DNA from: Veillonella criceti | Lineage (GTDB): Bacteria > Bacillota > Negativicutes > Veillonellales > Veillonellaceae | Assembly (NCBI RefSeq): GCF_900460315.1 | Contig: NZ_UHIO01000001.1 | Coordinates: 644,001-708,000 of the forward strand | Length of the DNA stretch: 64,000 bases | Direction of reading: 5' to 3' | In this document: positions 17,410 through 37,824 of the stretch, one piece after another | Position numbering within the stretch: the stretch's first letter is position 1 | Layout: each line of letters starts with the position of its first letter | Notes under the pieces: model-generated | Told to the model about the DNA's origin: nothing | Database searches by the model: none | What the model saw: only the letters and a program-made list of their open reading frames with translations | Position numbers and translations under genes: made by a program

Positions 17410-17420
17410 TACAATTGCTC

Positions 17421-18720: not shown

Positions 18721-18753
18721 TATATATTCTCTATTTAATTAAGTATTAACTAT

Positions 18754-18782
18754 AGTTTATATAACTCTAGTATGACTGTCAA
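18754..18782 (-). promoter_or_regulatory. Promoter of the B12 operon
   Basis: A -35 TTGACA (18777-18782) is followed by a weaker -10: TAAACT at 17-bp spacing, or TATAAA at 15 bp. It lies just upstream of the riboswitch aptamer, in the short gap after the PepSY gene. Confidence 0.6.
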
Positions 18783-18831
18783 CCATATACCTATATTTAA
18801 TTTTTAAAGTTATAAAATCAAATATTTTAAC

Positions 18832-20088: not shown

Positions 20089-20103
20089 ATATTTATCAAC
20101 CTT

Positions 20104-22338
20104 CTAATATTCATAACGAACACCTAAGGTATAAGTGCGACCAGCCGTTGCTTCATTATCGTAAAATTCTCTATCAAATATATTATCAATGCTGAATTTA
20201 ACTGTAAAATCAGGTGTTACTCGATAGCCCACACTTGTATTGACTAAGAAATAACCATCATAAGCCCCATACTCACCACCTGGGGCATTGGCATTTTGAC
20301 GAGGACTCACATATTGCATATCTAGCAAGGCAATCCATTTCGCTCTATCATACGCTAGCCCTGCATGGAAAATATGTTTAGGCACACCATAATCAACTTG
20401 ATTATTATAACCAGATTGATTCGTATTTGTGATTTCAGGCCCACTCACTTTGCCCATCTGCCAAGCATAATTAATATACGAGCTTAAATTATCATTAAAT
20501 CTATGTTCATAATTTAACTCAATGCCACGACGATTTTCTTCCCCATAGTTAATATATTGTTTATATTCAACAATACTACTATTAGGCGCATAAAAATATG
20601 TATAAGCTACTTTATCTTTTGTTTCTACTTGATATAAAGAAATATCTAATGTATCTTTATCAGTTAAATGACGTTTCATCCCCACTTCCCAGGTCTTAGA
20701 TATTTCAGGATCTAAATCTGGATTAGGAATTACATTTCCCATACCTGACCCACCAAACCGATAAATATTATACAAAGCTGGTGGATTAAATGATTCTCCA
20801 TATGATACATAATAATTCATATTCTCATTGGCTTTATACTCTAAGGCAACCTTGGGACTTATATGATTATACGTTTTACCCTCTGAAGTTGTATCATAAC
20901 CATTTTTACCGCTACGCCAGAATTTTCCATCCCCTTTTTTGAAACGATCATAACGAGCACCAACAAACAAAGACCATTCATCATCAAATTTATATTCATC
21001 TTGAACGAAAACCGCTAAGTTTTTCACTTTCCCTTCGTCCTGTGCATATTGCTCAATAATTGAACCCTTATTATGCCAAGAAGATAAATCATAACGTTTT
21101 TGAATCATTTCTTCTTCGTGATAAGAAACCCCTGCATTAATGGTATGTTTTCCAATATCATGCCACGTCTTTTCAATTTCATAGGCCCATTTTTTACCTG
21201 GATGTTGCGAATAATCACCAACCCCGGCCCAATCAATCCCTGTATATTTACTTGGAACCGTAGCCGATGTAAATCCATCAACTTTATCATGCGCATAACT
21301 TGCTCTAGCTAAGAAATCATTCGCCGTATCCTGATACGACAAAATATGCGTGTCCCGTTTATTCTCACTATCATAACCTAAAAAATTTTTAGGAGAGAGA
21401 CTTATATATTTATTCTCGCCAACTAATATATTACCTTTCCAAACGGGATTTCCCTTAGCATCACGTACATAAGTAAATGGATTCTTATAAAAAGACTGAC
21501 TATTCGTTCTTGAATAACTATATGTTAACAGTTTATCTTGATTAAAATTATAGCCAATCTTAAAGCCATAATTTTCATGTTCCCATTCTTTTTCACCACG
21601 CCCACCATATAAATAGGTACCATTACTTAATTGTTTCAAATCAGCACTAGCATCAATTTTAGTATTCGCTTTCACCGTATTAGCTGAAGCTGCCCGATAA
21701 AAACCACGATATCCATCAGACGAACGCTTTTCATAATTCACTCCTAAAGACCACTTATCAGATAATCTAGAGTTTACTGTAACAGCTTTTTTCCAAGTAT
21801 TGTTACTACCATATGACATATCAGCTACTACAGAAGTACCTTCCTCGGGCACTCCTTTTGTAATAATATTAATAACACCTGCTACTGCGTGGCCCCCATA
21901 CAAAGAGGATGCGCCCCCTCTTAGAACTTCAATACGTTCCACATTCGTAATGGGCACCATATTAAAATTCACTACACCATTGTATGAACTATTTTGCTGT
22001 ACCCCATCGACTAAAACTAGTACATCCGTCGAATCCATGCCACGCATAGTTAAGCTGCCTTGAGCACTCTGATCAATAAAAATACCAGGCAAAAATTGTA
22101 AGGCTTCTTGCACTGACGAGATATTCTTATGCTCTATATCTTGCGACGTAATAACACTTACACTAGCTGGCACATTCGCAATATCTTGATTAGTTTTAGT
22201 AGCAGTTACTACTACTGTCCCCAAATCATAATCCGATGTCACTACACCTTCTGCAGCTACAATTGAACTACTCAATACAATGCCAATACTACTACAACAT
22301 AGTAATGCAACAAGTCTTGATTTATTCTTACCTAACAT
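20104..22338 (-). CDS. TonB-dependent outer-membrane receptor, probably iron-related
   Basis: About 744 residues from the ATG at 22338, preferred over upstream starts because AGGAGGGG lies directly before it. A signal peptide (LVALLCCSSIGIVLSSSIVAAE) precedes the TonB box (DLGTVVVTATKT), a plug with RIEVLRGGASSLYGGHAVAGV, and a 22-strand-type barrel ending YTLGVRYEY. The length and the co-transcribed PepSY protein suggest a ferric siderophore or haem receptor rather than a B12 receptor. There is no riboswitch upstream. A strong promoter and a weak Fur-like element are present instead. The substrate cannot be fixed from sequence alone. Confidence 0.85.
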   Translation of the reverse strand: MLGKNKSRLVALLCCSSIGIVLSSSIVAAEGVVTSDYDLGTVVVTATKTNQDIANVPASVSVITSQDIEHKNISSVQEALQFLPGIFIDQSAQGSLTMRGMDSTDVLVLVDGVQQNSSYNGVVNFNMVPITNVERIEVLRGGASSLYGGHAVAGVINIITKGVPEEGTSVVADMSYGSNNTWKKAVTVNSRLSDKWSLGVNYEKRSSDGYRGFYRAASANTVKANTKIDASADLKQLSNGTYLYGGRGEKEWEHENYGFKIGYNFNQDKLLTYSYSRTNSQSFYKNPFTYVRDAKGNPVWKGNILVGENKYISLSPKNFLGYDSENKRDTHILSYQDTANDFLARASYAHDKVDGFTSATVPSKYTGIDWAGVGDYSQHPGKKWAYEIEKTWHDIGKHTINAGVSYHEEEMIQKRYDLSSWHNKGSIIEQYAQDEGKVKNLAVFVQDEYKFDDEWSLFVGARYDRFKKGDGKFWRSGKNGYDTTSEGKTYNHISPKVALEYKANENMNYYVSYGESFNPPALYNIYRFGGSGMGNVIPNPDLDPEISKTWEVGMKRHLTDKDTLDISLYQVETKDKVAYTYFYAPNSSIVEYKQYINYGEENRRGIELNYEHRFNDNLSSYINYAWQMGKVSGPEITNTNQSGYNNQVDYGVPKHIFHAGLAYDRAKWIALLDMQYVSPRQNANAPGGEYGAYDGYFLVNTSVGYRVTPDFTVKFSIDNIFDREFYDNEATAGRTYTLGVRYEY

Positions 22339-22425
22339 ATTACCCCTCCTAAGTAAATCCCCGCTAAATATACCCATACACCTATGCGCTACATGAAAAC
22401 TTCATAAATAGCCTTTATAAGTCGA

Positions 22426-22454
22426 ATTATACTGCCCTATATTACCCCAGTCAA
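22426..22454 (-). promoter_or_regulatory. Strong promoter of the receptor-PepSY operon
   Basis: A -35 TTGACT (22449-22454) and a perfect -10 TATAAT (22426-22431) are separated by 17 bp on the minus strand, about 90 nt before the receptor start. Confidence 0.75.
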
Positions 22455-22466
22455 CGAAATACACAT

Positions 22467-22486
22467 AGTAATGAATTATTATCATA
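22467..22486 (-). promoter_or_regulatory. Weak Fur-like element
   Basis: The minus strand reads TATGATAATAATTCATTA. The first half fits the Fur 7-1-7 pattern TGATAATNATTATCA, but the second half matches only in its first three positions. It lies upstream of the -35 rather than over the promoter, so this is a tentative call. Confidence 0.3.
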
Positions 22487-22531
22487 ACTCAATGCCTATT
22501 TTTGAATAAAAAGTAAAAATTAATAAAATAC

Positions 22532-22562
22532 AAAAAATCCCCCAACCATAAACGGTCGGGGG
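22532..22562 (-). terminator. Terminator after the restriction-modification operon
   Basis: A GC-rich stem (CCCCCAACC 22539-22547 with GGTCGGGGG 22554-22562, one mismatch) is followed on the minus strand by ATTTTTTG. It lies 13 nt beyond the stop of the GIY-YIG gene. Confidence 0.85.
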
Positions 22563-22574
22563 AGGGGATAAATA

Positions 22575-23444
22575 TCAACTGTTTAATACTTTTTCTTCTA
22601 ACGCTTTTTCTATTTCACCTAATGTCATACCATCACTAACTCGTTTCCAAACTAGTAACCCATTAGCACTAGCAAAATGTACAAAGGTCGCAGCAGCAGA
22701 AGGGGAAGAAAATAGTATATCTTCAATTAATTTTCCATTTTTTATTTTACTTTTATACTTATCTCTATTACGTATTACATAATTAGGACAACTAGCTGTT
22801 TTTTCTTGAACAACTTCACTACCTTTAAATACCATAAAGCCATCATTTGTCCGTTTACCATAAGCCTTATAACCTTTTAAAGTAGTAATCAACTTGTCTT
22901 CTTTCGTTTTTGTGCTTTTACCAATAGGATCAAATATTTTATAGCCCATTGTCCCTATAATCATTTTAATATAAGAAATAAACTCTTCTAACACACATTC
23001 TTTTTCTTCAGAAATATTGCCAATTGTAGGCTCTACATTATTTGTAACTTTATAACGGTTACCTTTCTTTGCCATATTACAAAATTTATTTTCCAAAAAG
23101 CTTATTTCTGTAGGGCCAAAAGAGTCATCTGATGTTGTGATAATAATAGCTTCCGTCCAATAGTCAATAGATTGATGTGCTTCTACTGCTCTAGATAAAA
23201 CGCCTAACCCATTTTTTCGTATTCCTCCCTGCCCTATATAAATACTGGCGTTATCATCTTTATCAGTTCCCATTAGAAAATAAACACCACTTTGTTGTAA
23301 ATATTTTAAGTCATTACAATTATCCGCTAAGGTTCTGGGGATTTTATACACTACACCTGGGCGACCTTCCATACTCCCCTTAATACGACCAGTTGGCTCT
23401 TTATCTAATAAAAATAAGGTAATAACTGCTCCATCTATAGCCAA
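22575..23444 (-). CDS. GIY-YIG nuclease-family protein with DUF4357 domain
   Basis: A 289-residue protein. A GIY-YIG-like core lies at about residues 45-100 (SGVYFLMGT then IYIGQGG), and a C-terminal DUF4357-type module at about 225-280 (KLIEDILFSSPSAAATFV followed by SANGLLVWK). Proteins of this architecture are often found beside restriction-modification genes. Here it follows hsdR by 8 nt, starts with TTG, and shares the operon terminator. It may be an accessory nuclease of the defence locus or a modifier of HsdR activity; neither is shown. Catalytic Arg and Glu residues were not checked against a structure. Confidence 0.7.
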   Translation of the reverse strand: MAIDGAVITLFLLDKEPTGRIKGSMEGRPGVVYKIPRTLADNCNDLKYLQQSGVYFLMGTDKDDNASIYIGQGGIRKNGLGVLSRAVEAHQSIDYWTEAIIITTSDDSFGPTEISFLENKFCNMAKKGNRYKVTNNVEPTIGNISEEKECVLEEFISYIKMIIGTMGYKIFDPIGKSTKTKEDKLITTLKGYKAYGKRTNDGFMVFKGSEVVQEKTASCPNYVIRNRDKYKSKIKNGKLIEDILFSSPSAAATFVHFASANGLLVWKRVSDGMTLGEIEKALEEKVLNS

Positions 23445-23452
23445 TAGTATCC

Positions 23453-26400
23453 CTACTTTCTCCGCAATGGTAAAATATCCTTTTCTATCATCTGTTTCAA
23501 ATCAGTGGTTATAGCCCTTTTATATTTTAATCTAGAAACCGGTTCTTCAGTAGTTTCCTTATATTTAGTATAATCAGCAGTCTTAACTAACTCAGATTCG
23601 CCAGGTTGTATTTCATTTCGTGGATTATAGGTATCACCCATATATGATACAATATGCTCTTTTACGCCCCATTTTCTTGAGAAAGTTTGATATGCATACT
23701 CCCGTGCTTCTTGACTTTTATCTTCTAACAGCTCTGAAATATTAACATCTCTATATTCATTTGGATTAGACAAAATACCTTGCCAAATCTCATCTAGCAT
23801 TGTAGCAATCTTAGGATTTGATTTAAATAATTCTTCAATAAATCCATTAACTTCAGCCTCTGCTTTTTTCCCGATAGAAGTAAATAAAACCTCTTGCCCT
23901 TCACTAGAGGTACTAGGCACATAGCTTTGAATTAAAGAAATAATATATTCATAATTTATTTCTTCTGTATGAGTCGTCTCTAGCTCATAACTAACATCAA
24001 ACTCTATATTATCACCTGAGTCATCGCCTGTCCCTCTACGTTTTTTTAATTCATCAATAACATTTTCATATTTCCCTCGATACTCTTCCCACTTATCAAA
24101 TGTTATTGAAAACTCTGTTCCTAACATAGATTCGTCAAAATCACTATACACTCGAATCGCACTAAATGCTTTATCTACATTTTGAAATGCCTTAGCATAT
24201 CGCCGTAAGGATTCATCTGAAGCCCCTTGGATAACTATATCGCTAACATTAGGAGCAATTAATAATAATGCCTCAATAGCTTTTATAAAATTATCTCTTG
24301 ATTCTTGCCAAGTAGGTGCCAATACATCATTCTCACCGCCATTTGAATATAAAATTAAAGCATTTTTAACGTGCTCCTCAAACAAAGCCGGCGTTTGGAA
24401 TGTTACAATCTGTCCAAATTTTTTATCTACTGTAAATAGTCGATTAGTTCGTGAAAATGCTTGAATTAAATTCTGCGGTTGCATAGGGGCACGATCAATA
24501 AATAAAGTACTCATACAAGGTGCATCAAAGCCTGTCAATAAACGATCAACAACAATTACAATATCCAACTGTGCAGCTCGACTTAAATATTGACTCTTCT
24601 TTCGTGCTAACCGATCATTAATATTGCTATTATATTGCCGAATCGTTTCCATTGAATAGCTAGTTCCAAATTCTTCATTATAATCAGCAATACACTCTTT
24701 CATTACGCGCTGATTCTCAATAGATGTTTCATCATTTTCTGAAATAGAATAAGTTATAGCTATCTTTGGAAAATCAGGTAATACCTTTTTAATATTTTCA
24801 TCAACTTTTATTTTTGAAGTCCCGTTTTTAACAGCCTTAAATAACTTATAATATTTCTGAGCCTGTTCGATAGAACTCGTTGTTAATAACGCATCATATG
24901 TCTGTCCAGGTCCTTTTATAAAACCTAATTTATTACGTGAACGGTTAACAATAGAATCTACTACTTGTAACATATGTGATTCTGATAAAAACACCTCTGC
25001 TGGAATTAGTTTTTCTTTATCCTTAATTTCCATATCCATAATAGTACGTAGAACTTCCGGACTTAATTCCTCATGGCTATTCCCCATTTTAATACGAGCA
25101 ATCATTTCATCTAATTGATATTCTGGAATTGTCCGTTTATATTCCACTTGAAAACCTAATACAGCTCTATCATGAATAGCTTCTTTTACTGTATATTGAT
25201 GTAAACGTTTACCATATTGTTGCTCTGTAGTTCTTGGCAATTCCCCTACTTCAGCATGAGCATTTTCTGCAAAAATAGGAGTACCTGTAAAACCATACCA
25301 CAATGAATTAATAAAAAATTTCTCAATCTCATGTTTTTTCTGTGCTGAAATTGCTCGATGACATTCATCAACAACAAATGCTAAATTTAAATGCGTAAGC
25401 TTCTTATACCTAGGTGTATCTTTTTTAGTTTCAAATCGTCGCATTACATGATGTAACTTTTGAATCGTCGTCACAATAACATTACGATTTGCAGAAAGTA
25501 ACCGCTCAATCAATTCATTAACATTATCCGTCTCATCAATATCAATGACATCATTTTCTGCATATGACTGAAAAGATGCAGTCGTTTGTTGATCTAAATC
25601 AACTCTATCAACAATAAAAATAGTTTTATCAATCGATGGAATCATTAATAAATTACGTGCCACCTTATATGAAGTTAATGTTTTTCCGGAGCCAGTTGTA
25701 TGCCATACATAGCCCGATATTCTTGTTTTAGAAGCCTCTTTAACAGCTTCAATTGCATGAATCTGATAAGGACGTAATGCAATCAACGCCTTCTTATCAT
25801 TATCTATCACTGTATATTGGGTAACCATTTTATGGGCCATAGGAATTGATAGAACCTTATCTGCAAAATTAATATAGTCATCTACAGGTTCATTGCTTTC
25901 ATCAACCCATTTAGTTAAAAACTGTTCATTTAATTTTGTATCTGGAGCAGTTGCAATATATCGAGTATCTGTACCATTTGAAATGACAAATAATTGTAAA
26001 CAAGAATAAATACCTGTAAACTTACCTTCTTGTAAATATTTCTTTATTTGTCTAAAACCATCCATATACGGATGTGTTCTATTTTTTAATTCAATATGGA
26101 TCATTGGTAATCCATTAATCAATAGCGTTACATCAAAACGACGATTTTGATCCATCCCAGAGCGTTTTACAGATTGAAACTGATTAATGACTTCATAACT
26201 CGAAATACCACCAGCAATATCTTGGCGATTAATGACACGTAATCTAATTGTACCTAAGGTAGCATTCTCACGCTGTACTTGTACTTTGGCAATACCGTTT
26301 TCTCCAGCTAACCATTTTGCTGCATCATAAAAAGTAGGAAAATTTAATTGATTTTTTATTTGTTGAAATTCAAGATTAGTTAAAGGAACTCCATCAAGTA

Positions 26401-26557
26401 CATCAACATTATTCTGTTCTAACTTTTTTCTAAAATTATCCCATAAATCATCTTCTGTTCTTAAATCTGGACGCTCTGTCCACTGTGATACTCCAGATAC
26501 TAGTTGATTGATTAACTCTCTCTCCATTTTACTTTCAGATGTATATTGCATGCCCAT
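23453..26557 (-). CDS. hsdR: Type I restriction endonuclease subunit R
   Basis: A 1034-residue motor/nuclease subunit. The N-terminal nuclease domain shows a PD-(D/E)xK core ([12 protein letters not shown] then IHIELKNR, about 135-165). SF2 translocase motifs follow: Walker A HTTGSGKT (about 287), DEAH-type VDECHRA (about 395), [10 protein letters not shown], and the C-terminal lobe with [10 protein letters not shown] and QAFSRTNR. The start has AGGAG 7 nt upstream. With HsdM and HsdS it cuts DNA lacking the modification. The specificity subunit lies on the far side of the recombinase segment, so hsdR is transcribed separately from hsdM-hsdS. Length is normal and no lesion is visible. Confidence 0.95.
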
Positions 26558-26648
26558 GTAGCCACTCCTAACTATTTTATATGCAACTTAAAATTTCCTC
26601 ATGTAATAATTAATTCTAGTATATCATGATATATTCCATATTGCTTGA

Positions 26649-27845
26649 AAAAATAACGCTATTCACCCTTGGGAACAGCGTAAGTTAGGAGAAGTCACTC
26701 TAAAAATTACTCGGAAAAACAACAATCTAGAGTCAATATTAGTCTTAACTATTTCAGGCCAACTAGGATTAATATCTCAATTAAAATATTTTAATAAAAC
26801 TGTTGCTGGAAAAGATTTAAAAAACTATTATTTAATCAAACATGGAGAATTTGCTTATAATAAAAGTTATTCAGTAGCAGCTCCTTGGGGAACCATTACT
26901 CGTTTAGAACGCTATAAATCAGGTGTTTTATCAACCCTATATATATTATTTAAACCAGTAGAGTCAATTATAAATTCTAATTATATGGCTGCATATTATA
27001 AATCAAATCATTGGCATTTTAATATTTCTAAAATAGCTACTGAAGGTGCTAGAAACCATGGATTATTAAATCTATCTCCTCGTGATTTTTTTAATACAAC
27101 TCTTAGCTTTCCACAAAATAAAAATGAACAAAAAAATATAGCTAGTCTAATTAATTACTTAGAAAAAACAATTGAACTTCACCAGCGTAAGTTAGAAAAC
27201 TTAAAATTATTAAAGTTAGGATTAATACAGAATTTATTCCCCGCAAATGGAAAATTAAGGCCTATGATTAATATAACTAATAATGTTGAAAACTGGCAAC
27301 AGCTTAAGTTATTTGATGTTTTAGAGATACCGATAAAAGAAAGACTAGAGAATCCAGCTTTAAATAAATTAATAACGGTTGGATTAAACTTAACTGGAAT
27401 TCGGGTCGGTAGCGCCCGTGAAACATTAGACATAGGTGCTACAACTTATTATGTTAGAAGAAAAGGCCAGTTAATTTATGGCAAACAAAACTTTTTTAAT
27501 GGATCAATGGCAATAATAGACGATAAATATGATGGATATGCAACATCTATTGATGTCCCTGCACTGAATATTAATAACAATAAAGTAGATTCTAAGTTTT
27601 TATATTATTATATTTCTCGACCATGTTATTATAAAAGAACAGAGGCTCAGGCTATAGGTACTGGCTCTAAACGCATTCATGAAAAAACTTTATTATCATT
27701 TGAAATATATTTACCTCCACTTGCAACGCAAAAAAAGATTGCTAAATTAATTAATAATATTGAAAAATATATTGCTAAACAAAATGTGCTACTAAATAAT
27801 TATATAAATATAAAAAATAAATATTTGCAATTACTTTTTATTTGA
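26649..27845 (+). pseudogene. Silent, start-less hsdS cassette (specificity reservoir)
   Basis: An open frame of about 398 codons on the plus strand begins right after a stop at 26646 and has no start codon for its first 112 codons. It reads HPWEQRKLGEVTLK and continues through a full type I S-subunit body: first recognition domain, central helix (LHQRKLENLKLLKLG), second recognition domain, and a final helix ending LQLLFI. Only the first ~20 residues of a normal HsdS are absent. It shares a 21-bp sequence (26669-26689) with the expressed hsdS on the opposite strand. Both recognition domains differ from the expressed ones. It is best read as a donor activated by inversion rather than a dead gene. 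Translation from an internal ATG at 26985 would give a truncated protein. Confidence 0.85.
26669..26689 (+). repeat. 21-bp inverted repeat, silent hsdS copy
   Basis: Starts TTGGGAACAGCG and encodes the WEQRKLG motif of the silent cassette. It is identical to 29769-29789 and 30384-30404 in reverse complement. It is the likely crossover site for inversion. Confidence 0.85.
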
Positions 27846-27909
27846 TTATAGCCTCCTTAAAATAAAATAGGTAATTTTCCCCTTTTTTATTATTAAGGAG
27901 GTTTTTCTT

Positions 27910-28839
27910 ATGACAAGAAGACGAAAATCAAATTTATTATTTAGTACGTACTACAGAGAATGGATTCAGCTTTATAAAGTGGGAGCTGTACGAGAGGTTA
28001 CACTTGATAAATATTGGAATACTCATCAACGAATTATAGAGTTAGCTCCTAATCTTCGAGTCCATGAAATTGACAGAGTTTTATATCAAAAACTGTTAAA
28101 TGATTATGCTGAGACACACGAAAAACAGACCACTTTAGACTTTCATCATTTGCTAAAAGGCGCTATTAGAGATGCAATTGAAGATGGGTATTTACTCTCT
28201 GATCCTACTAGAAAAGTAGTAATAAAAGGTAAATCACCTAGAGAAAAGAAAATAAAATATTTAAATCAATTTGAACTACAAGCACTTATAAAGCAATTAA
28301 ATTTAACCCCTAATTTAAATTGGGATTGGTTTATTTTATTAATCGCCAAAACAGGAATTCGTTTTTCAGAAGCTTTAGCTATTACTCCAGAAAGCTTTGA
28401 TTTTTTTACCCAAAAATTAACAATTTCACAAACTTGGAGTTATAAAAAAGGTGATGGAGGGTTTCAACCTACAAAAAATCATTCTTCAATACGCAAAATA
28501 CAATTAGATTGGCAAATAGCAATGCAATTTTCCCAACTTACGCAAGGATTACCACATGATAAACCTATATTTGTTACAAAGCGAGTATTTAACTCAACAA
28601 TCAATAATCGCTTACAAAAGCTGTGTTTAAAAGCTAAAATACCAATTATTACTATACACGGATTACGACATACTCATGCATCTTTACTGTTGTTTGCGGG
28701 TGTTTCAATCGCTAGTGTCGCTGCCAGATTAGGTCATTCAAGTATGTCTACAACACAGGAGACCTACTTACATATCATTCAAGAATTAGAAAACCAAGAT
28801 AATGATAAAATTATGAGACATTTAGCATCGCTTATTTAA
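27910..28839 (+). CDS. Tyrosine recombinase (phage-integrase family), probable hsdS invertase
   Basis: A 309-residue site-specific recombinase. The N-terminal SAM-like core-binding domain spans about 10-95. The catalytic domain (about 110-305) shows Arg in KTGIRFSEAL, the box HGLRHTHASLLL, LGHSSMSTTQETYLHI with the His and the nucleophilic Tyr. A strong ribosome-binding site (AAGGAGG) precedes the ATG. It lies between the silent and expressed hsdS genes, inside the segment bounded by inverted repeats. Comparable recombinases switch type I specificity genes in streptococci and mycoplasmas. No phage genes or tRNA target sites surround it, so a resident switch enzyme is more likely than a phage remnant. 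Confidence 0.88.
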   Translation: MTRRRKSNLLFSTYYREWIQLYKVGAVREVTLDKYWNTHQRIIELAPNLRVHEIDRVLYQKLLNDYAETHEKQTTLDFHHLLKGAIRDAIEDGYLLSDPTRKVVIKGKSPREKKIKYLNQFELQALIKQLNLTPNLNWDWFILLIAKTGIRFSEALAITPESFDFFTQKLTISQTWSYKKGDGGFQPTKNHSSIRKIQLDWQIAMQFSQLTQGLPHDKPIFVTKRVFNSTINNRLQKLCLKAKIPIITIHGLRHTHASLLLFAGVSIASVAARLGHSSMSTTQETYLHIIQELENQDNDKIMRHLASLI

Positions 28840-28843
28840 AAAA

Positions 28844-28903
28844 TAGGGACTGTAACATAAATGGCAAATAAAAATCACATTTCGTTACAGTCCCTACTTT
28901 TTT
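28844..28903 (+). terminator. Terminator of the recombinase gene
   Basis: A perfect 13-bp stem (TAGGGACTGTAAC at 28844-28856, GTTACAGTCCCTA at 28884-28896) is followed by CTTTTTTT on the plus strand, 5 nt after the recombinase stop. Confidence 0.88.
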
Positions 28904-29073
28904 ATAAATAATAAATTAATATAGACTTTCTTCAAAATTTTTAAGAATTTCATTCTATATTGGTAAAACTTACTTGTTCCATTGAAGAAAGTTAAAAATA
29001 CATTTAATTTATTTTGGAATATATTATATCTAGAAACCCCTTGTGGTAATAAAGCCAATTTCTTTAGTATATT
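28894..29073 (-). other. Degenerate coding remnant downstream of hsdS
   Basis: A 60-codon stretch without stop or start codon on the minus strand reads LKKLALLPQGVSRY and later FLTFFNGTSKFYQY. It looks protein-like in composition and overlaps the recombinase terminator. I do not recognise the family; it could be the tail of a lost gene. The rest of 28904-29287 holds only the hsdS remnant described separately. Confidence 0.3.
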
Positions 29074-29204
29074 TTAGATCTCAAAGAGTAAGCCGTATAG
29101 TGATTATCTAAAATGACTGTTGGGTTAAAACCAAAACAAAAATTATTTAAATAAGTAATTTATTGAACAGAAATATGTTTAAAATCATCTTTTATTTTTT
29201 TGAT

Positions 29205-29287
29205 TCCCCTGAGTAAATTTTACCAAATTTCCTTAATTTAGGCTGTTTCCATATATTAAAGCCCCTAAATCTTATTATTGGGTTTAT
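29205..29287 (-). pseudogene. In-frame hsdS continuation past the stop codon
   Basis: Directly after the hsdS stop, and in the same frame, the minus strand reads INPIIRFRGFNIWKQPKLRK. This parallels the expressed inter-domain segment TNPIIRFSGFNTNWEQRKLG. It is a decayed copy of the junction that precedes a recognition domain, left from an earlier cassette arrangement. It ends at a stop about 25 codons later. Confidence 0.65.
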
Positions 29288-30460
29288 TTATCCTTTTTCA
29301 GGGAATAAATATCGTAAATATATACTTTTTATCTTTTTTAAAGCTTCTAACTTACTTTGGTGAAGTTCAATTTTTTTATCTAATAAAAAAATAAACTTTG
29401 AAATCTTTATCATTTCACTTTTAGAAGGGAGTTTAATGTTAACAACTTTTATATTTTCTTTAGATAAGCTAGGAACGCCTGTAGATTCATCTAATTTATT
29501 CCACTTAATTTGTTGAAATAATATAAATAAAAAATAGAGTGAAATATATTTATTGGGAATTACATAAAATAAAGTATCAACAGTCCAAAAAGGAGCGTTT
29601 AAAATAAAAGGCTTATTAATAGTGCCTTTTCTGCCAATTCCAACAGCATCCTTATCATATGACAAAGCAGAATTAACCTTTGTCAATACTCCGCCAGTTC
29701 CATAAACAGGAATTGTACCTTTATTTAAATGTTTATAGTCTTTTCCATTATTAATAATACATACGTCCCCTAACTTACGCTGTTCCCAATTTGTATTAAA
29801 ACCACTAAATCTTATTATCGGATTTGTTTGTTTCTTTTCAGGAAATAAACATTGTAAATATCTACTTTTTATTTTTTCTAAAGATTCAAGCTTACGCTGG
29901 TGAAGGGTGATAAGGTGGTCGAATTTTCTAAAGAAAACACTTATTTTTGTCTGTTCTTTTCGATAAGGATAGTTTAAATCTATTTTTTCTAAATCAGAAT
30001 TGTGGAGATGGACTATAGATTTACCTTGCGCCATTTTTGCCATATCCTTATGCGCCTTTCCATTGGATATACTAATAGCTAAAAATACAGAATCAATTTC
30101 AGATAATGGTGTAATTATATTTAAGTCACCGCCCAGCAAAATACCCGACTTTTCAACGACTGAGGCTATGGAAATATCTTCAGCAGTCTCACCAGAAGCC
30201 GGAACTATAACTTCTCCACCATTACTATAAACAGAACCTATTTTACTAAATGTATATGTATCTACGTCAGTTATTACCATCTCATAGTTGGTATAAAGTC
30301 TACCATATAAAATAATTGGCACTCCTTCTTTTTTCAAATCTGCTTTCGAATACCCTATTCCTTTAGAAAAATTAACAATCTCCCCTAACTTACGCTGTTC
30401 CCAATCGTCTGTAAACCCTTTAAAACGTAATACTGGTGCTCTTCTTTGCTCTTTTTTCAT
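29288..30460 (-). CDS. hsdS: Type I specificity subunit S (expressed allele)
   Basis: A 390-residue HsdS. After a short lead (MKKEQRRAPVLRFKG) come WEQRKLGE and recognition domain 1 (about 30-165), central helix LHQRKLESLEKIKSRYL (about 175-195), a second WEQRKLGD (about 215), recognition domain 2 (to about 350) and a closing helix LHQSKLEALKKIKSIYL. It sets the bipartite target of both the methylase and the nuclease. Its start overlaps the hsdM stop by 4 nt (ATGA). The 21-bp repeat at 30384-30404 lies in the codons for the first WEQRKLG. An inversion there would swap everything downstream for the silent allele. Confidence 0.93.
   Translation of the reverse strand: MKKEQRRAPVLRFKGFTDDWEQRKLGEIVNFSKGIGYSKADLKKEGVPIILYGRLYTNYEMVITDVDTYTFSKIGSVYSNGGEVIVPASGETAEDISIASVVEKSGILLGGDLNIITPLSEIDSVFLAISISNGKAHKDMAKMAQGKSIVHLHNSDLEKIDLNYPYRKEQTKISVFFRKFDHLITLHQRKLESLEKIKSRYLQCLFPEKKQTNPIIRFSGFNTNWEQRKLGDVCIINNGKDYKHLNKGTIPVYGTGGVLTKVNSALSYDKDAVGIGRKGTINKPFILNAPFWTVDTLFYVIPNKYISLYFLFILFQQIKWNKLDESTGVPSLSKENIKVVNIKLPSKSEMIKISKFIFLLDKKIELHQSKLEALKKIKSIYLRYLFPEKG
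29769..29789 (-). repeat. 21-bp repeat copy inside hsdS (second recognition domain)
   Basis: Same 21 bp as 26669-26689 (reverse complement) and a direct repeat of 30384-30404. It encodes the second WEQRKLG motif and offers an alternative crossover point. Confidence 0.85.
30384..30404 (-). repeat. 21-bp inverted repeat at the 5' end of expressed hsdS
   Basis: Identical over 21 bp to the silent-cassette copy in opposite orientation. Recombination between the two would invert about 3.7 kb that contains both hsdS bodies and the recombinase gene. Confidence 0.88.
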
Positions 30461-32046
30461 CGTTTGAACACCGCCTTTGTTGCTTCAATAATATCTCGTG
30501 TCTCATCCGTTACCTGTAATTCATCAAGCATAGCTAAAAATTCTTTTTCAGTTTCTTCAATTTCTTTATTGATAGAGATTATCTCTTTACTCAATTCAAT
30601 AATATCAATAGGTTCTTCTTCTTCAAAAGTATCTACATATCGTGGAATATTAAGATTAAAATCATTCTCTTTAATTTCTTCAAAAGATGCTACATGAGCA
30701 TATTTATCTACATCTTCTCTATTTTTATATGTATCTAAAATTTTCTGAATATGCCCTTCTTCTAATAAATTTTGATTTTTACCTTTAGTAAACTCATTAG
30801 AAGCATCAATAAATAAAACGTCCCGATTGGTTCTATTTTTCTTCAAAATAATAACTGTAGTAGGAATTGAAGTATTAAAGAAAATATTGGCAGGTAAACC
30901 AATTACTGTATCAATTGCACCATTCTCTAACAAAACTTTTCTTATTTTGCCTTCTGCATTGCCTCGGAATAATACACCATGTGGTAGCACTATCGCCATT
31001 ACTCCTGTATCTTTTAAATGATAATAACCATGTAACAAAAATGCAAAATCAGCCTTAGATTTTGGTGCTAATACACCATATGTAAAGAAACGCGGGTCAT
31101 CTAAAAATCCTTTTTCAGCTCCCCATTTGGCTGAATATGGTGGATTCATTAAGACTGCATCAAAGTTTGTAGGTTCCTCTGTTGGCCAATCTTGATCTAA
31201 AGTATCTGCATTATGTAGATGTTGGTTTTCAATAGGAACACCATGAAGAATCATATTCATACGTGCCAAATTATATGTAGACGTATTTAACTCTTGCCCA
31301 AAATATTGAATCATACCTGGCATATTTGAATATTTTTTTGCATTTAAAAGCAATGACCCAGAACCCATAGTTGGGTCATATACTGAAAATCCAGGCATAT
31401 CTTCACGATCATTCAACACTATCCGGGTCATAAGAGTAGATACTGCTTGAGGAGTATAGAATTCCCCAGCCTTTTTTCCAGAATCAGAAGCAAATTGTCC
31501 AATTAAATATTCATATGCATCACCCAACACATCCCCACTATGTGCCAAATCTAGATTCGCTAATTCTTTCATAACTCCAGAGATAGTCTGGTTTTGCTTT
31601 TGAGGCGTATTTCCTAATTTTTTAGAAAACAAATCTATATCTTCAAATAAATTAGCAAATACAGGAGAAGATAATTGAATATCAGATAAACCTTGTGCTA
31701 AATATTCTAAATGAAACTCTCCAGTATTCATTAATTCTACCAAATAGGTAAATGTTAATTCAGGTTTAATAATGTACGATATATTTTCATACACATCTTT
31801 AATAAATTCTTCGTCATCAATATTCGTTGTATATTCACGTTCAAAAATACGTTGTGCTTCTATTAAATCCTCTGTTGGCTCATCTAATAGTTCAGCAAAA
31901 GTTAATAATAATTTATCACTTAAATATTTATAGAATACAAGACCTAATAAATATGACTTATACTCATTCGCGTCCATCTTAGACCTTAATATATCTGCAC
32001 AATTCCATAGTGCTTGATACAAAGTTTTTGAATTAGATTCTGCCAT
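30457..32046 (-). CDS. hsdM: Type I DNA methyltransferase subunit M
   Basis: A 529-residue N6-adenine methyltransferase. The N-terminal HsdM helical domain covers about 1-150. The catalytic domain has FYTPQAVSTLM and the SAM-binding VYDPTMGSGSLLL (about 215-235), and the catalytic NPPYSAKW (about 305). The C-terminus is a Glu-rich coiled coil that contacts HsdS. The start lies behind GGGAGG. It is the first gene of hsdM-hsdS and overlaps hsdS by 4 nt. A 23-bp palindrome lies about 50 bp upstream in its promoter region. Confidence 0.95.
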   Translation of the reverse strand: MAESNSKTLYQALWNCADILRSKMDANEYKSYLLGLVFYKYLSDKLLLTFAELLDEPTEDLIEAQRIFEREYTTNIDDEEFIKDVYENISYIIKPELTFTYLVELMNTGEFHLEYLAQGLSDIQLSSPVFANLFEDIDLFSKKLGNTPQKQNQTISGVMKELANLDLAHSGDVLGDAYEYLIGQFASDSGKKAGEFYTPQAVSTLMTRIVLNDREDMPGFSVYDPTMGSGSLLLNAKKYSNMPGMIQYFGQELNTSTYNLARMNMILHGVPIENQHLHNADTLDQDWPTEEPTNFDAVLMNPPYSAKWGAEKGFLDDPRFFTYGVLAPKSKADFAFLLHGYYHLKDTGVMAIVLPHGVLFRGNAEGKIRKVLLENGAIDTVIGLPANIFFNTSIPTTVIILKKNRTNRDVLFIDASNEFTKGKNQNLLEEGHIQKILDTYKNREDVDKYAHVASFEEIKENDFNLNIPRYVDTFEEEEPIDIIELSKEIISINKEIEETEKEFLAMLDELQVTDETRDIIEATKAVFKR

Positions 32047-32092
32047 GATTGCCTCCCTACTAATACTACATATATCATTGCTGTTATATACA

Positions 32093-32115
32093 CTTACACT
32101 GATAATCAGTGTAAG
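32093..32115. promoter_or_regulatory. 23-bp palindrome upstream of hsdM
   Basis: Starts CTTACACTGAT and is symmetric except at the central base. On the minus strand it is followed by TATATAAC, a possible -10, so a bound protein would sit over the -35 region of hsdM. There is no T-tract, which argues against a terminator. No regulator gene lies next to it. Confidence 0.55.
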
Positions 32116-32193
32116 CTCTTAATATATTATTGTAGACAAATTTTATACAATAGAACAGTACATTTTGGTCATACTCTTATTACAATTCTAAAT

Positions 32194-32240
32194 AAAAAGA
32201 CAGATAATATCACTTTTTTCTAGATATTATCTGTCTTTTT
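32194..32240. terminator. Orphan bidirectional terminator-like hairpin
   Basis: A perfect 17-bp stem (32194-32210 with 32224-32240) whose arms begin and end in A5/T5 runs, so either strand gives a T-tract. It lies between two divergent genes rather than after a gene, and may insulate the restriction locus from its neighbour. Confidence 0.6.
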
Positions 32241-32394
32241 ATAATATGCATTTCAAGTATATTTATTTCAACCAATTATAATATTTCCGCCTAATATATC
32301 AATATAGAAATGCTTCTATTTTAATGGAATTACGCAATTGACTCAAACATTTATTCGATGTATTATTTTAGTAAAGGTACAGGAGGTGACATAT

Positions 32395-33927
32395 ATGGGT
32401 TACATTAATTACGATTTAGAGCCACGTGCTGATATTGCATTTATTGACATGAAGTCTTTTTATGCCAGTGTAGAGTGCATCGAACGAGGGCTTAATCCTC
32501 TCACCACTTCGCTATGCGTTATGAGCCGAGCAGACAATTCCAAAGGGCTCATCCTTGCCTCATCACCTACTTTCAAACATGTATTCGGTAAGCAAAATGT
32601 CAGTCGTTCCTATGATTTACCCTTTGATATTGAAACTCGACGTTTCAATTTAAAAAGAGTCCTCCAAGAGGGCTTTCCTATCAATAATACTTATATAAAT
32701 TACATTGAAAGCTGGGCTAAGCGAACCCTGATTGTGCCACCTCGCATGGGCTTATATATTGTAAAAAATATTGAAATTCAACAAATTTTTCGTGAATATG
32801 CAGCAACTGAAGATATTTGCCCCTATTCAATTGATGAAGGGTTTATTGATTTAACCCGTTCACTTAATTATTTTGTGCCTCAGCCAGAACTTTCACGCCG
32901 TGAAAAACTCGATATTCTCTCTGCTAAAATCCAACATGATATCTGGCGTCGCACGGGCATATTTAGTACGGTTGGCATGTCCAATGCGAATCCCCTACTG
33001 GCTAAACTAGCCCTAGATAATGAAGCTAAAACTACCCCTATGATGCGTGCCAATTGGTCCTATGAAGACGTACCAAGTAAAGTATGGCAACTACCTAAAC
33101 TAACGGACTTTTGGGGCATTGGTCAGCGCACAGCACGCCGTTTAGAAAAACTAGGTATTCATACAATCAAAGAATTAGCCCATGCAAATCCAGATAGTTT
33201 GAAAAAAGAATTCGGTGTCATCGGTGTACAACTCTGGTTTCATGCCAATGGAGTTGATGAAAGTAATGTACGCGAACCCTACAAAATACAATCCAAAGGC
33301 ATTGGCAACTCACAAATTTTACCGCGCAACTACACCAAACAAGAAGACATAGAGTTACTTCTTTCTGAAATGGCCGAACAAGTTGCTATCCGCTTACGCC
33401 GTAGTCACCAACAAACACAATGTGTCGCTATCTATATAGGCTTTGCCAAAGAATCTTGGAGCGCTAATACTAATCTAGCTACCACTAACACTAATACTAA
33501 TCTCGCTAATACTAACACTACTAATGCTAATCTCACTGACATAACTAATACTACTCCTCTTACTACTCGTAGCACTATACAAGCTCAAATGAAAATTGAA
33601 CCGACGCAACTAACAAAAGACCTTACACAACATATTCTCACTCTATTTCGTAAACATTATAAAGGTGAACCGGTTCGGCAAATTGGAGTCCGTTACAGTC
33701 AATTACTACCAGAAACACTCCAATCTATTTCACTCTTTGATAATCCTGAAACAATTCAAAAAGCCCATAATTTAGAACACACCATTGATGATATCCGTCG
33801 CCATCATGGTTTTCTAGCTCTCCAAAAGGCTTCAGCCTTACTAGAGGGATCCCGCGCTATTGCTCGCAGTAAACTAATTGGTGGCCATGCAGCCGGCGGT
33901 GCTGGAGGATTGGATGGTCTCTTATGA
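32395..33927 (+). CDS. Y-family DNA polymerase (UmuC/DinB-like)
   Basis: A 510-residue translesion polymerase from the ATG at 32395, chosen because AGGAGGTGA lies 7 nt upstream; an upstream TTG lacks one. The palm begins FIDMKSFYASVECIERG with the first catalytic Asp. YSIDEGFIDLT holds the Asp-Glu pair. FSTVGMSNANPLLAKLA follows, then a helix-hairpin-helix (FWGIGQRTARRLEKLG) and the little-finger domain. The little finger carries an Asn/Thr-rich insertion of about 40 residues (33460-33580). The partner genes downstream match the UvrX/YolD-type arrangement of Firmicutes. It is expected to bypass DNA lesions and raise mutation. Confidence 0.9.
   Translation: MGYINYDLEPRADIAFIDMKSFYASVECIERGLNPLTTSLCVMSRADNSKGLILASSPTFKHVFGKQNVSRSYDLPFDIETRRFNLKRVLQEGFPINNTYINYIESWAKRTLIVPPRMGLYIVKNIEIQQIFREYAATEDICPYSIDEGFIDLTRSLNYFVPQPELSRREKLDILSAKIQHDIWRRTGIFSTVGMSNANPLLAKLALDNEAKTTPMMRANWSYEDVPSKVWQLPKLTDFWGIGQRTARRLEKLGIHTIKELAHANPDSLKKEFGVIGVQLWFHANGVDESNVREPYKIQSKGIGNSQILPRNYTKQEDIELLLSEMAEQVAIRLRRSHQQTQCVAIYIGFAKESWSANTNLATTNTNTNLANTNTTNANLTDITNTTPLTTRSTIQAQMKIEPTQLTKDLTQHILTLFRKHYKGEPVRQIGVRYSQLLPETLQSISLFDNPETIQKAHNLEHTIDDIRRHHGFLALQKASALLEGSRAIARSKLIGGHAAGGAGGLDGLL
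33460..33580 (+). repeat. Asn/Thr trinucleotide-rich low-complexity tract in the polymerase gene
   Basis: Repeated AAT/ACT/AAC-type codons encode runs such as TNTNLANTNTTNANL inside the little-finger domain. The repeats are imperfect and in multiples of three, so slippage would alter length without breaking the frame. Confidence 0.7.
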
Positions 33928-34307
33928 TTAATCGTTCCTACTTACCATTTCAATCGGCCCGCACCTATAAAGACCGAAAAATGGCCAAATGGATGGGCTT
34001 CTTCTTATCCGATCATCAGACAGCACTTTTGCAGTCACACGTTTCAGTAAATTTTGGCCAAACTATGGAGCAAGAAGAACGTTTAATCTGGCTAGGACGT
34101 CTTTATGCGCAACAATGTAAAGCTACATTTTACATAGAAAAACAATTAAAACAAGGGCTAAACGTGCAGCAATTGCAAGGCTATGTACAAGATGTAAACT
34201 TACAGGAAGTCATTATAAAAACAGCTAAAACTTCAGAATTTGTAACTGTTTCACCAGATCAAATTATTCGTATTACCACTGAGGAGATGGACGAAAATGG
34301 AAACTAG
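33924..34307 (+). CDS. YolD-like protein
   Basis: A 127-residue protein whose start overlaps the polymerase stop by 4 nt (ATGA), implying coupling. The N-terminus (RTYKDRKMAKWMGFFLSDH) and the closing beta-rich part (LQEVIIKTAKTSEFVTVS) resemble the YolD-like family. That family is encoded beside Y-family polymerases in Bacillus and is thought to act in the SOS response, perhaps as a UmuD analogue. There is no catalytic motif. Assignment rests on position and partial resemblance. Confidence 0.6.
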   Translation: MINRSYLPFQSARTYKDRKMAKWMGFFLSDHQTALLQSHVSVNFGQTMEQEERLIWLGRLYAQQCKATFYIEKQLKQGLNVQQLQGYVQDVNLQEVIIKTAKTSEFVTVSPDQIIRITTEEMDENGN

Positions 34308-34593
34308 AGAGTTTCAACGTAATCAACTACAATTTGCTTATTTTACGCCCAATTACTTACAATTCGAAAATGATTTTTACGAGTATTCAGCGTTAGATAC
34401 ACCACTCACCTTTTTAACCGATGATATTTTACAAAGCATGGCCCATTCACAACAGAATTATTTTAAATTAAATAAAGAAAACGCCAAAGACAATCAAGAC
34501 CATTATTTTTATTTCAAAATTCATACCGTTGAACACAAACGCTTAATTCGCCAATATGTATATGACGGACATGCCTTACATAAACGAGATTAA
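34297..34593 (+). CDS. Small uncharacterised protein (possibly DUF5960)
   Basis: A 98-residue soluble protein rich in aromatic and acidic residues, including FTPNYLQFENDFYEYSALD and LTFLTDDILQSMA. It overlaps the preceding gene by 11 nt and ends the three-gene polymerase operon. From memory it resembles small conserved proteins of streptococci and Veillonella labelled DUF5960; I cannot verify that here. No catalytic motif or membrane segment is visible. Confidence 0.6.
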   Translation: METREFQRNQLQFAYFTPNYLQFENDFYEYSALDTPLTFLTDDILQSMAHSQQNYFKLNKENAKDNQDHYFYFKIHTVEHKRLIRQYVYDGHALHKRD

Positions 34594-34649
34594 TACCTAT
34601 CCAAGTACACTCTATCCCCAATCTAATTAATACATCTAAAATCAATATA

Positions 34650-36116
34650 TTATTTTTTCTGGAGCACAGTATAATTTGATAAACTATCTATCATACTCCA
34701 TGTACCACCTACATCCTGAAGAAAATCTGCCATACGACGATTCTCTACTATAGCTAATACTTGCGGGGTAATCACTACTTTCTCTGCAGCTAATAAAGGC
34801 ATGACATTTTTAGTATTCCAATCCATATTGGACGGTTTCATATGTGGAATATCTTCAGATTTTTCAATTCGATACACTAATCGCCCACTGTAATAATCTA
34901 TTGACGTTTTATAATTACCATAGCTAACAACCATGTCCTGAGCGGTTACATGATCTGCTACTATATAGCCAATATTCTTAGCTGAATATTGAGCACATAA
35001 TGGAATCACTACAGCAAATGTAAGAATAGTATATAAAATAATATTGTTCAACACTACACGTTTCACAAAGCTATAACGCTCATGTAATTGACGGGCAACT
35101 AATAGAGCAATTGGTAACAAATAAGGAAATGTATATGTTGTATACTTTGTAGCCATCAACTGGTAAAATACCACAATTATAAGTGCCCAAATTAATAAAA
35201 AAGTCGTTGTCTGATCAAAAGTGCACCATCGTTGCCAAAAACTCTTGGTGTTTAATTGAGAACGACGGTCTTGCCAATATCGTTTTAACATGGCAGGCAC
35301 AGTAAATATCCACGGGAAAAATCCAATAACAAACATGCCTAAATAGTAATACCATACATTATCTCGCGGATGCTCTGACACAGTAGCCCGCAATACATTA
35401 TGTACGCCAAAGAACACATTGATAAACTCCATGCCATGTGTCTTATACATAAAATAATACCAAGGTCCGGCCACTAGCAAGAAAATAACTGTACCACCTA
35501 GCCATTTCATACGAAGTAATTCTTTATAATTTTGTTGACTTATTAAAAATAAAATAACGATAAGTCCTGGTAGAAGCAAGCCAATAGGCCCCTTTGTCAA
35601 CACAGCCAGCCCCGCAAAGAAATAGGCACCATAATAATAATTCCGTTGCAAACGACTGTACCCTAAGTAAAAGCAAATTAAGGCTGCATTGAAAAAGACA
35701 AACAATGTCATATCTGTAATCACAGCTTTAGCAATAAGCCAGTATTCAAAAGAAGTACCTAAAATTAAAGCCGACATAAAACCAATAGCTCGGTTATAAA
35801 CTTTATATCCAAACCAATACGTCATAAATAATCCTAAAACACCAAATAGCGCAGGGAAAAAACGGGCGCCCCATTCATTAATGCCAAAGAGTTTAAAGCC
35901 TGCTATCACTTCCCAATAGAAAAAAATGGGCTTATCATACCAATAATGACCATAAATTTGTGGTGACAAATAATTCTGAGCTAATAGCATTTCTTTAGCT
36001 GTTAGTGCATAGTTCGATTCTACAGGATCAGTAATAGCAATGGCCCAATTACCAACTAAAAATAGGTATAAGGCTATCCCTAATAAGGTAGCACACTGTT
36101 TTTTTACACTAGTCAT
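34650..36116 (-). CDS. GT39/ArnT-like membrane glycosyltransferase
   Basis: A 488-residue polytopic membrane protein with about ten helices. The first loop has the conserved acidic motif (AITDPVESNYALTAKEML), and YDKPIFFYW matches the ArnT/PMT family. These enzymes move a sugar from a polyprenyl-phosphate donor to lipid A or protein at the periplasmic face. In ArnT the product gives polymyxin resistance, but the acceptor here is unknown. It starts 11 nt after a PAP2 phosphatase gene, a sensible partner because polyprenyl phosphate is recycled. The C-terminal ~110 residues are a soluble periplasmic domain. Confidence 0.85.
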   Translation of the reverse strand: MTSVKKQCATLLGIALYLFLVGNWAIAITDPVESNYALTAKEMLLAQNYLSPQIYGHYWYDKPIFFYWEVIAGFKLFGINEWGARFFPALFGVLGLFMTYWFGYKVYNRAIGFMSALILGTSFEYWLIAKAVITDMTLFVFFNAALICFYLGYSRLQRNYYYGAYFFAGLAVLTKGPIGLLLPGLIVILFLISQQNYKELLRMKWLGGTVIFLLVAGPWYYFMYKTHGMEFINVFFGVHNVLRATVSEHPRDNVWYYYLGMFVIGFFPWIFTVPAMLKRYWQDRRSQLNTKSFWQRWCTFDQTTTFLLIWALIIVVFYQLMATKYTTYTFPYLLPIALLVARQLHERYSFVKRVVLNNIILYTILTFAVVIPLCAQYSAKNIGYIVADHVTAQDMVVSYGNYKTSIDYYSGRLVYRIEKSEDIPHMKPSNMDWNTKNVMPLLAAEKVVITPQVLAIVENRRMADFLQDVGGTWSMIDSLSNYTVLQKK

Positions 36117-36127
36117 GATAAATACTC

Positions 36128-36829
36128 CTATTTTTCAGTATAATAATTATCTAAAGAAGCACTAACTATTTCAGATTTTGCCATATTTTCTATCTCTTCT
36201 TCATCATTATTAAATTTCTGATGTAATATAGCAGGCGCCATTCCTCCATTAACATAATCGTTTATACAATTAGGTAGTTTATCTCCATATACAGTTAATA
36301 AATAATTCAGTACATTTAAACTTATGCAGCCAATAAGAATTCCTAATATCATACCAACCAATACATCTGTAGGAAAATGTGCATATAAATAAATTCTTGA
36401 GATCCCGATAAAAGCAGCTAAACCAAGTCCCCAATAGCGTCTAGGAATTTTATCTAACATTAAGATTGTAGCTATAGCAAAAGATGACCAAGTGTGACCT
36501 GAGGGAAATGAATAGCCCTGAGGGGCTGTAATTAATAATTGTAACGTTGGTTGCCATTCAAAAGGTCGAATACGTCCTACTAAAGGCTTAATTCCTAAAT
36601 TACAAATTAAAAAGCCTAATGCTAACGCTACTACAATAGCGATACCAGTCTTGCGATACTCTGATCGCCAAAGTAAATAAATCCCTACGGCAATCCAAAT
36701 AACGCCACTATCCCCTAAAGTAGTAATCGTAATCATGAATGAATCCAACCAATTTGTATGCCCATGTAACCAAATATAATTTAAAATAGCAAAATCAACT
36801 TGTTGTATATAATTTAATACACTCTCCAT
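36128..36829 (-). CDS. PAP2-family membrane phosphatase
   Basis: A 233-residue membrane phosphatase with about five or six helices. The three PAP2 motifs are present: KPLVGRIRPF (about 85-94), PSGHTWSS (about 111-118) and SRIYLYAHFPTDVLVG (about 143-158). Likely substrates are undecaprenyl diphosphate or another lipid phosphate at the outer face of the inner membrane. It is first of a two-gene operon with the glycosyltransferase. The C-terminal ~50 residues after the last helix are a soluble extension. BcrC-type and lipid A phosphatases cannot be told apart here. Confidence 0.85.
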   Translation of the reverse strand: MESVLNYIQQVDFAILNYIWLHGHTNWLDSFMITITTLGDSGVIWIAVGIYLLWRSEYRKTGIAIVVALALGFLICNLGIKPLVGRIRPFEWQPTLQLLITAPQGYSFPSGHTWSSFAIATILMLDKIPRRYWGLGLAAFIGISRIYLYAHFPTDVLVGMILGILIGCISLNVLNYLLTVYGDKLPNCINDYVNGGMAPAILHQKFNNDEEEIENMAKSEIVSASLDNYYTEK

Positions 36830-36942
36830 ACTATGCCTCCTGGATTTTTCTATATAGATAGTATATAAAGGCTTATTAAACTCTCCTTACAACAAATTTA
36901 AATTATAAATAAACTTTCTATTACTAATTTTAAAATTCAACA

Positions 36943-36980
36943 ATAAAAAGCTATTATCGACCATCGCCAATAATAGCTTC
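36943..36980 (-). terminator. Terminator of the two-component operon
   Basis: A stem AAGCTATTAT (from 36948) with ATAATAGCTT (to 36979) is followed on the minus strand by TTTTTATTG. It lies about 100 nt after the response-regulator stop. Confidence 0.75.
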
Positions 36981-37075
36981 TATACTCATCCTATACAATT
37001 ATCCTTCTTAAATACATCTACTTATTGTATGATAAAGAGTCTGCTTCACCCTATAAGATACATGCCTTAACATTC

Positions 37076-37771: not shown

Positions 37772-37824
37772 AATAGTTCCTCCTTCAATGTATAGTAATA
37801 AACTAGCTGTTATTATTTCAGTTC

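Follow-up and report, generated by a model that had tools for sequence, protein, structure and literature searches.

Type I restriction-modification systems in which inversion reshuffles the specificity gene hsdS are already known from Listeria (Fagerlund et al.) and from streptococci. The Listeria monocytogenes ST8/CC8 locus LMR479A_0528-0532 consists of hsdR, hsdM and two opposed hsdS genes that flank an integrase gene, and is described in four variants, A-D, with inverted pairs that read agcttgggaacagcgt at the 5' end and ctatcgctcttcatcagcgtaagttagat in the centre (PMC4783014). In the pneumococcal cod/SpnIII (ivr) locus, inversion at the 15-bp repeat IR1 depends on PsrA, and IR1-like sequences are needed within the repeats IR2 and IR3 (PMC4948785, PMC7096588). 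The general scheme of the inverting type I systems was set out in a REBASE survey (PMC7394358), in whose main text the word "Veillonella" does not occur, and the open-licence papers listed by our searches included no description of such a locus in this genus. In this study, we analysed a window of 64,000 nucleotides from Veillonella criceti (GCF_900460315.1, contig NZ_UHIO01000001.1, positions 644,001 to 708,000), whose hsd locus is, in all probability (about 0.92), a further example of this type, i.e., a type I system with a specificity gene that is reshuffled by site-specific inversion among four states. A preliminary description of the window had proposed an invertible specificity switch that carries its own recombinase gene, which was borne out by an inverted form of the locus on C5, another contig of the same assembly.

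Two arrangements of the specificity genes

The minus strand carries hsdM (30457-32046) and hsdS (29288-30460), which are followed by a recombinase gene (27910-28839) and a silent hsdS' (26670-27845) on the plus strand and then by hsdR (23453-26557) on the minus strand. HsdM, the N6-adenine methyltransferase subunit of a type I system, matched TIGR00497 with 366 bits (cut-off 243) and Pfam N6_Mtase and HsdM_N, while the restriction subunit HsdR matched TIGR00348 with 342 bits (cut-off 285) and Pfam EcoR124_C and HSDR_N. The open reading frame (ORF) of hsdS encodes 390 aa with two recognition domains, which correspond to two stretches of Pfam Methylase_S, and no NCBIfam family was assigned to it; with all three subunits present, the type I system is complete according to Pfam and NCBIfam (hsdS by Pfam only). 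The ATG of hsdS overlaps the 3' end of hsdM, and this position suggests that it is the expressed copy. The frame of hsdS' is open for 391 codons, beginning with a Trp at 26670 and running up to a stop whose last base is 27845 (Methylase_S on 26985-27845); upstream there is an in-frame TGA at 26646-26648, and the seven codons in between contain no start. Thus, a silent hsdS without a start codon and an expressed one face each other, as was previously claimed; the former is a second variable hsdS in the opposite orientation that is predicted not to be expressed independently. The gene between them, also noted in the preliminary description, encodes a tyrosine recombinase of 309 aa (Pfam Phage_integrase, E 1.2e-17), in which the stretches TGIR, HGLRH, LGH and TYLH presumably correspond to the catalytic motifs of this family, and which the NCBIfam tyrosine-recombinase models matched below their own cut-offs.

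The identical 21-bp sequence that had been reported at the 5' end of each hsdS, TTGGGAACAGCGTAAGTTAGG, is exact and inverted, and lies at 26669-26689 (+, site A, in hsdS') and 30384-30404 (-, site C, in hsdS). Beyond the preliminary description, we found a third copy of this 21-mer at the start of the second half of hsdS (29769-29789, -, site B) as well as an inverted pair of the 15-mer CTTCACCAGCGTAAG between the first and second recognition domains, at 27177-27191 (+) in hsdS' and at 29891-29905 (-) in hsdS. All five sites, the three 21-mers and the two 15-mers, have the core CAGCGTAAG in common, which is translated as Gln-Arg-Lys within WEQRK before a recognition domain and HQRK after it, and since all of them are read in this one frame, each exchange preserves the reading frame. 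In the 2.2-Mb genome, the 13-mer CAGCGTAAGTTAG occurs in eight places, four in the window's locus on contig C1 and four in its copy on C5, and its reversed control in none; this confinement indicates that the 21-bp repeat is beyond chance.

The assembly of five contigs has two ARRANGEMENTS, with the recombinase at 100% identity on C1 and on C5 (23,046 bp), and these are the only sequences in the genome with more than 30% identity to it. Contig C5 aligned to positions 14984-27191 of the window at 99.6% and to 29885-38067 at 99.2%, and the 2729-bp segment between the central sites (27177-29905), which is 100% identical, is inverted in C5 with both junctions inside the identical 15-mer CTTCACCAGCGTAAG. 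The inversion at the central pair is therefore not just predicted but assembled. The result is a protein of 407 aa in which the first domain comes from the expressed copy and the second from the silent one (open when computed from the window letters). Immediately behind site C, C5 has a 30-base patch, TTAGGGAGAAGTTACTCTAAAAATTATTCG, after which the expressed sequence resumes. This patch is three edits away from the silent first domain TRD1' and 11 from the expressed TRD1, and 11 was also the minimum among 2000 random 60-base pieces of the window. It is possible that the patch is a consensus mixed with molecules in which the 5' end of hsdS was joined to the silent TRD1'. This would correspond to inversion of the 3736-bp segment bounded by the 21-bp pair (26669-30404), the crossover that was originally proposed, in which both domains are replaced; it is supported indirectly by the patch and by contig ends in relatives, whereas the crossover that was observed is that of the central pair and exchanges the second domain only. 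After a crossover at the 21-bp pair, for which about 20 conserved residues had been estimated, the first 27 residues of HsdS remain unchanged, 19 of which precede the repeat.

All four computed states have an open hsdS, with 390 aa in the window, 410 after inversion at the 21-bp pair, 407 after the central inversion and 393 after both. The recombinase encoded between the facing hsdS genes would recombine short sites that share the core, and because the 21-bp pair lies before the first recognition domain and the 15-bp pair between the two domains, the two inversions would assort two alternatives of the first domain and two of the second into four full-length HsdS proteins. The two-state switch of the preliminary description is thus replaced by a four-state shuffler, and a clonal population would be expected to hold up to four methylation and restriction specificities rather than two. 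By analogy with related systems, the window recombinase probably drives the inversion, and the 21-bp pair of this strain would be inverted as well; each of the four HsdS isoforms is predicted to be functional, and methylation would change with switching. The phasevarion-like character suggested in the preliminary description may apply, and would mean that switching alters the methylome and the expression of a regulon. Inversions between other pairs of sites, which were only computed, would give HsdS of 615, 576, 446 and 241 aa, and no evidence of their occurrence was found.

The locus and its sites in relatives

A scan of species genomes, which may lack records of the window's own genome or of one very near to it, yielded 55 named loci, largely from Bacilli and Clostridia, with a recombinase of 57-76% identity. 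In 34 of them, the recombinase gene has hsdS-like ORFs on opposite strands on both sides within 500 bp. With a stricter filter, in which hsdM had to lie no more than 2.2 kb away through an hsdS and the opposed hsdS ORFs no more than 400 bp away, 30 loci qualified (28 named and two from the window's order); the recombinase gene points in the direction of hsdM in 22 of these and against hsdM in eight. The window itself fails this filter, as its hsdS open frame is about 450 bp away, but has the orientation against hsdM. The orientation differs between Trichococcus ilyis (L024) and T. flocculiformis (L065), and homologues of recognition domains recur at the first and second positions across loci, e.g., TRD1 in L070 and L093 and TRD2 in L088 and L094.

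Within the window's order, the recombinase was found in 18 of 61 genomes (E 1e-60). The window recombinase falls into a clade of 21 rows from Bacilli and Lachnospiraceae (support 96/93), apart from 17 of its own order, which suggests that it was acquired horizontally and separately from those 17, although its branch is long and its exact position in the tree is accordingly unsure. An approximately unbiased (AU) test that rejected the window recombinase and the 17 as one clade (p 1e-7) was set aside, as the 17 do not form one clade themselves, and we relied on the 21-row clade. Four loci of the window's family (L088, L089, L099 and L101) have the recombinase and a silent half-cassette with one recognition domain that ends in CTTCATCAGCGTAAGTAT, without a whole second hsdS. 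In genome G043, contigs C10, C13 and C21 (L101-L103) have 76-77 terminal bases in common and fork at TGGGAACAGCGTAAG and CTTCATCAGCGTAAG, and one recognition domain apparently occurs twice, once in hsdS and once in a silent single-domain cassette next to a recombinase. The fork of C13 and C21 exactly at a site was considered as an inversion, but two copies of one recognition domain explain it better. It is worth mentioning that, in the window hsdS, the distance from the central CAGCGTAAG site to the next TGGGAACAGCGTAAG site is exactly 117 bp, and the same spacing was found in L070, L087-L090, L092, L094, L096, L098, L100, L103 and L104.

The coding of the sites was compared in the hsdS-like ORFs of 45 loci (the window and named loci). 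The WEQRK sites read GAACAGCGTAAG in 79 of 122 cases against 3.2 expected from the local codon usage, and at least one exact site was present in 32 of the 45 loci; the central HQRK sites are less locked, with 19 of 40 reading CAGCGTAAG. Among 80 WEQRK-type codings in the window's order, 46 of the 49 within 10 kb of a recombinase were exact (43/46 without the C5 duplicates), compared to 12 of the 31 elsewhere, with a Fisher p of 2e-7 that is descriptive only because related sequences are not independent. The three inexact codings near a recombinase differ in the last base. The core CAGCGTAAG is conserved at the DNA level in recombinase-bearing loci. Moreover, the 55 named loci extend to 30 contig ends, three of which lie exactly at a site (position 1 or 2), namely both ends of a 3357-bp contig of Listeria costaricensis (L019) and one in Anaerocolumna (L014); mixed orientations at a site of the 21-bp type would be expected to leave a contig with a repeat at either end.

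Alternative explanations

Several points weigh against a four-state shuffler driven by its own recombinase. The full opposed pair is missing from 21 of the 55 named loci (14 with hsdS-like ORFs on one side or the same strand and seven with none, some of them at contig edges), and the codon-lock counts are not phylogenetically independent. The 12 exact sites away from a recombinase in the window's order comprise three on fragments of the broken G043 locus, two in hsdS on another contig of G041, two in hsdS of G051, where no recombinase match reached the threshold, and five in G025, G055 and G060. For the inversion of the 21-bp pair in this strain, the evidence is indirect and consists of one 30-base hybrid patch, and C5, which is known from the assembly alone, might in principle be an assembly artefact. 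In pneumococcus, less frequent inversions that are independent of PsrA have been described (PMC7096588), and these would also favour general homologous recombination between repeated hsdS sequences, with the recombinase being incidental. The relatives L014, L015, L016, L017, L022 and L025 have identical central repeats of 110-153 bp, which would suit such exchange as well. The crossover pair in the window locus, on the other hand, is identical over only 15 bp, which is short for RecA-dependent exchange, and the core is codon-locked and confined in the genome to this locus. Given also the recurrence of the recombinase between opposed hsdS-like ORFs in relatives, we regard general recombination as unlikely.

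An artefact or a second strain, with a locus that is static in the isolate, would be in keeping with the 45 and 65 indel positions in the two C5 flank alignments. The flank differences are nearly all indels, which are concentrated around the junctions and in the outer parts of the contig, and this pattern fits a thinly covered long-read contig; the left flank (12.2 kb) has no mismatches, and the four on the right are all beside the junction or in the hybrid patch. Since two junctions 2.7 kb apart share one identical 15-mer, an artefact is unlikely. Contig C3 (L009, 8413 bp) repeats, in circularly permuted form, an 8.4-kb stretch of the chromosome (C1:1783566-1792013) that holds a distant tyrosine-recombinase relative and was assembled both integrated and in a form resembling an excised circle. 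As this form was retained too, the assembly seems to keep alternative arrangements, and we consider a static locus very unlikely. The exactness of the 21-bp pair, its codon-locked core in the relatives, the ends of L019 and L014 contigs at the corresponding site and the C5 patch, which suggests molecules that were inverted there, could all be accommodated by a two-state switch with crossover at the 5' repeats only, which replaces both domains together. As the sole mode, this is contradicted by the assembled inversion, which used the central pair and moved only the second domain, and two pairs give four states; such a switch therefore has hardly any likelihood, and four states remain the preferred reading.

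Recombinase leader and comparison with known systems

Upstream of the recombinase gene, a leader hairpin at 27850-27903 (+; -21 kcal/mol, z -5.2, none of 200 shuffles as stable) holds the Shine-Dalgarno sequence AAGGAGG (27895-27901) within its 3' arm and is followed by TTTTT. In relatives, a first pass took in 76 rows of recombinase ORFs, of which 20 were dropped (17 without a start anchored by GGAGG or AGGAG and three by length), eight of them from the window's order (L087, L088, L089, L093, L094, L096, L099 and L101). In the remaining 56 rows, which count three loci twice (L010-L012 are L070-L072), at least four Shine-Dalgarno bases were paired upstream in 45 and z was below -3 in 45; L091 and L097 were negative. 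A second pass, restricted to GGAGG, found both features in 38 of 56 recombinase leaders compared to two of 142 other genes of the same loci (7 hsdM, 7 hsdR, 10 hsdS, 3 silent and 115 other genes), and in 34 of 53 after removal of the duplicates (19 rows having been dropped for want of a GGAGG start). Of the 19 failing leaders, eight have a stable hairpin that abuts the Shine-Dalgarno sequence without covering it (L030, L036, L037, L042, L043, L052, L060 and L092), seven show no unusual stability (L028, L029, L035, L058, L090, L095 and L100) and four are borderline (L026, L034, L044 and L064). The leader hairpin is therefore common, not universal, and is weak or unscored in much of the window's own order.

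RNAalifold predicted no pairs on a MAFFT alignment of 24 leaders. Because a sequence aligner does not register the arms of a hairpin, an anchored swap test was used, in which 52 of the 53 leaders paired with their own arms in 3.33 of six extension pairs, compared to a mean of 2.73 and a maximum of 3.23 in 2000 swaps, with an anchor that misplaces several leaders (e.g., L014, L015 and L027). The arms fit their own partners better than those of others. Rfam gave only sub-threshold matches on 27700-28100 (best manA-II, 21.8 bits against a cut-off of 100), the terminator scan, whose loop limit is eight bases, did not call the leader hairpin, and a sigma-70 promoter of the recombinase could not be placed, with 39 promoter-like matches against 35.2 expected. 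Behind the recombinase gene there is an inverted repeat (28838-28902, +; arms of 19 nt, 95% complementary) that looks like a terminator by eye and was not called by the terminator scan either.

The hairpin may act as a terminator of hsdS transcription, occlude read-through translation or serve as a regulated leader, and these roles do not exclude one another. As the gene flips together with the segment, the recombinase lies alternately downstream of the active hsdM-hsdS operon or away from it. One tentative proposal, to which we give somewhat less than an even chance, is that the hairpin, by burying the ribosome-binding site, and the U-run together insulate the recombinase, so that read-through hsdS transcripts would yield none and the switching rate would not depend on orientation; in the same proposal, the codon-locked, frame-preserving core within conserved HsdS motifs makes protein motif and recombination site one sequence. 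The same hairpin could also be the point at which recombinase synthesis is regulated. That the dose of the recombinase matters in the pneumococcal system follows from psrA overexpression, in which psrA mRNA raised 2.5- to 3.7-fold brought about a strong shift in the mix of alleles (PMC11709252). No description of a leader hairpin in such recombinases was found among the open-licence papers listed by our searches.

The neighbourhood includes a gene directly after hsdR (22575-23444, -) that matched the PADLOC candidate defence family PDC-S14 (E 4e-86) and Pfam DUF4357, an ORF adjoining hsdM on the other strand (32338-33927, +) that by eye resembles a Y-family (UmuC-type) DNA polymerase, and an open frame of 3067 aa (1648-10851, -), perhaps for a giant surface protein. 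Elsewhere in the assembly, the first 1335 bases of contig C2 (L068) appear again at 4551-5885, which would fit a circular replicon of about 4.55 kb that was assembled with an overlap.

The window locus presents a shuffler of restriction and methylation for which four states are possible, and a single assembly contains two of its arrangements. Its codon-locked CAGCGTAAG core offers a simple sequence signature for finding such switches, and the recurring hairpin at the ribosome-binding site suggests how the recombinase dose might stay independent of orientation. By the published descriptions, it resembles cod/SpnIII in having a tyrosine recombinase in the locus and in the reshuffling of hsdS, which alters specificity, but cod/SpnIII has three hsdS genes and repeats of 15, 298 and 85 bp (PMC4948785, PMC7096588). 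The Listeria ST8 locus shares its architecture, and the Listeria repeats overlap the window motifs ttgggaacagcgt and cagcgtaagttaga; the description of that locus, in the portion available, includes no hairpin leader such as that of the window recombinase (PMC4783014). The window locus differs from it in the additional 21-mer midway through hsdS, in the central identical pair, which is 15 bp here and 29 bp in Listeria, and in belonging to another genome and lineage, and its two arrangements are found within one assembly, whereas those of Listeria are found between strains.

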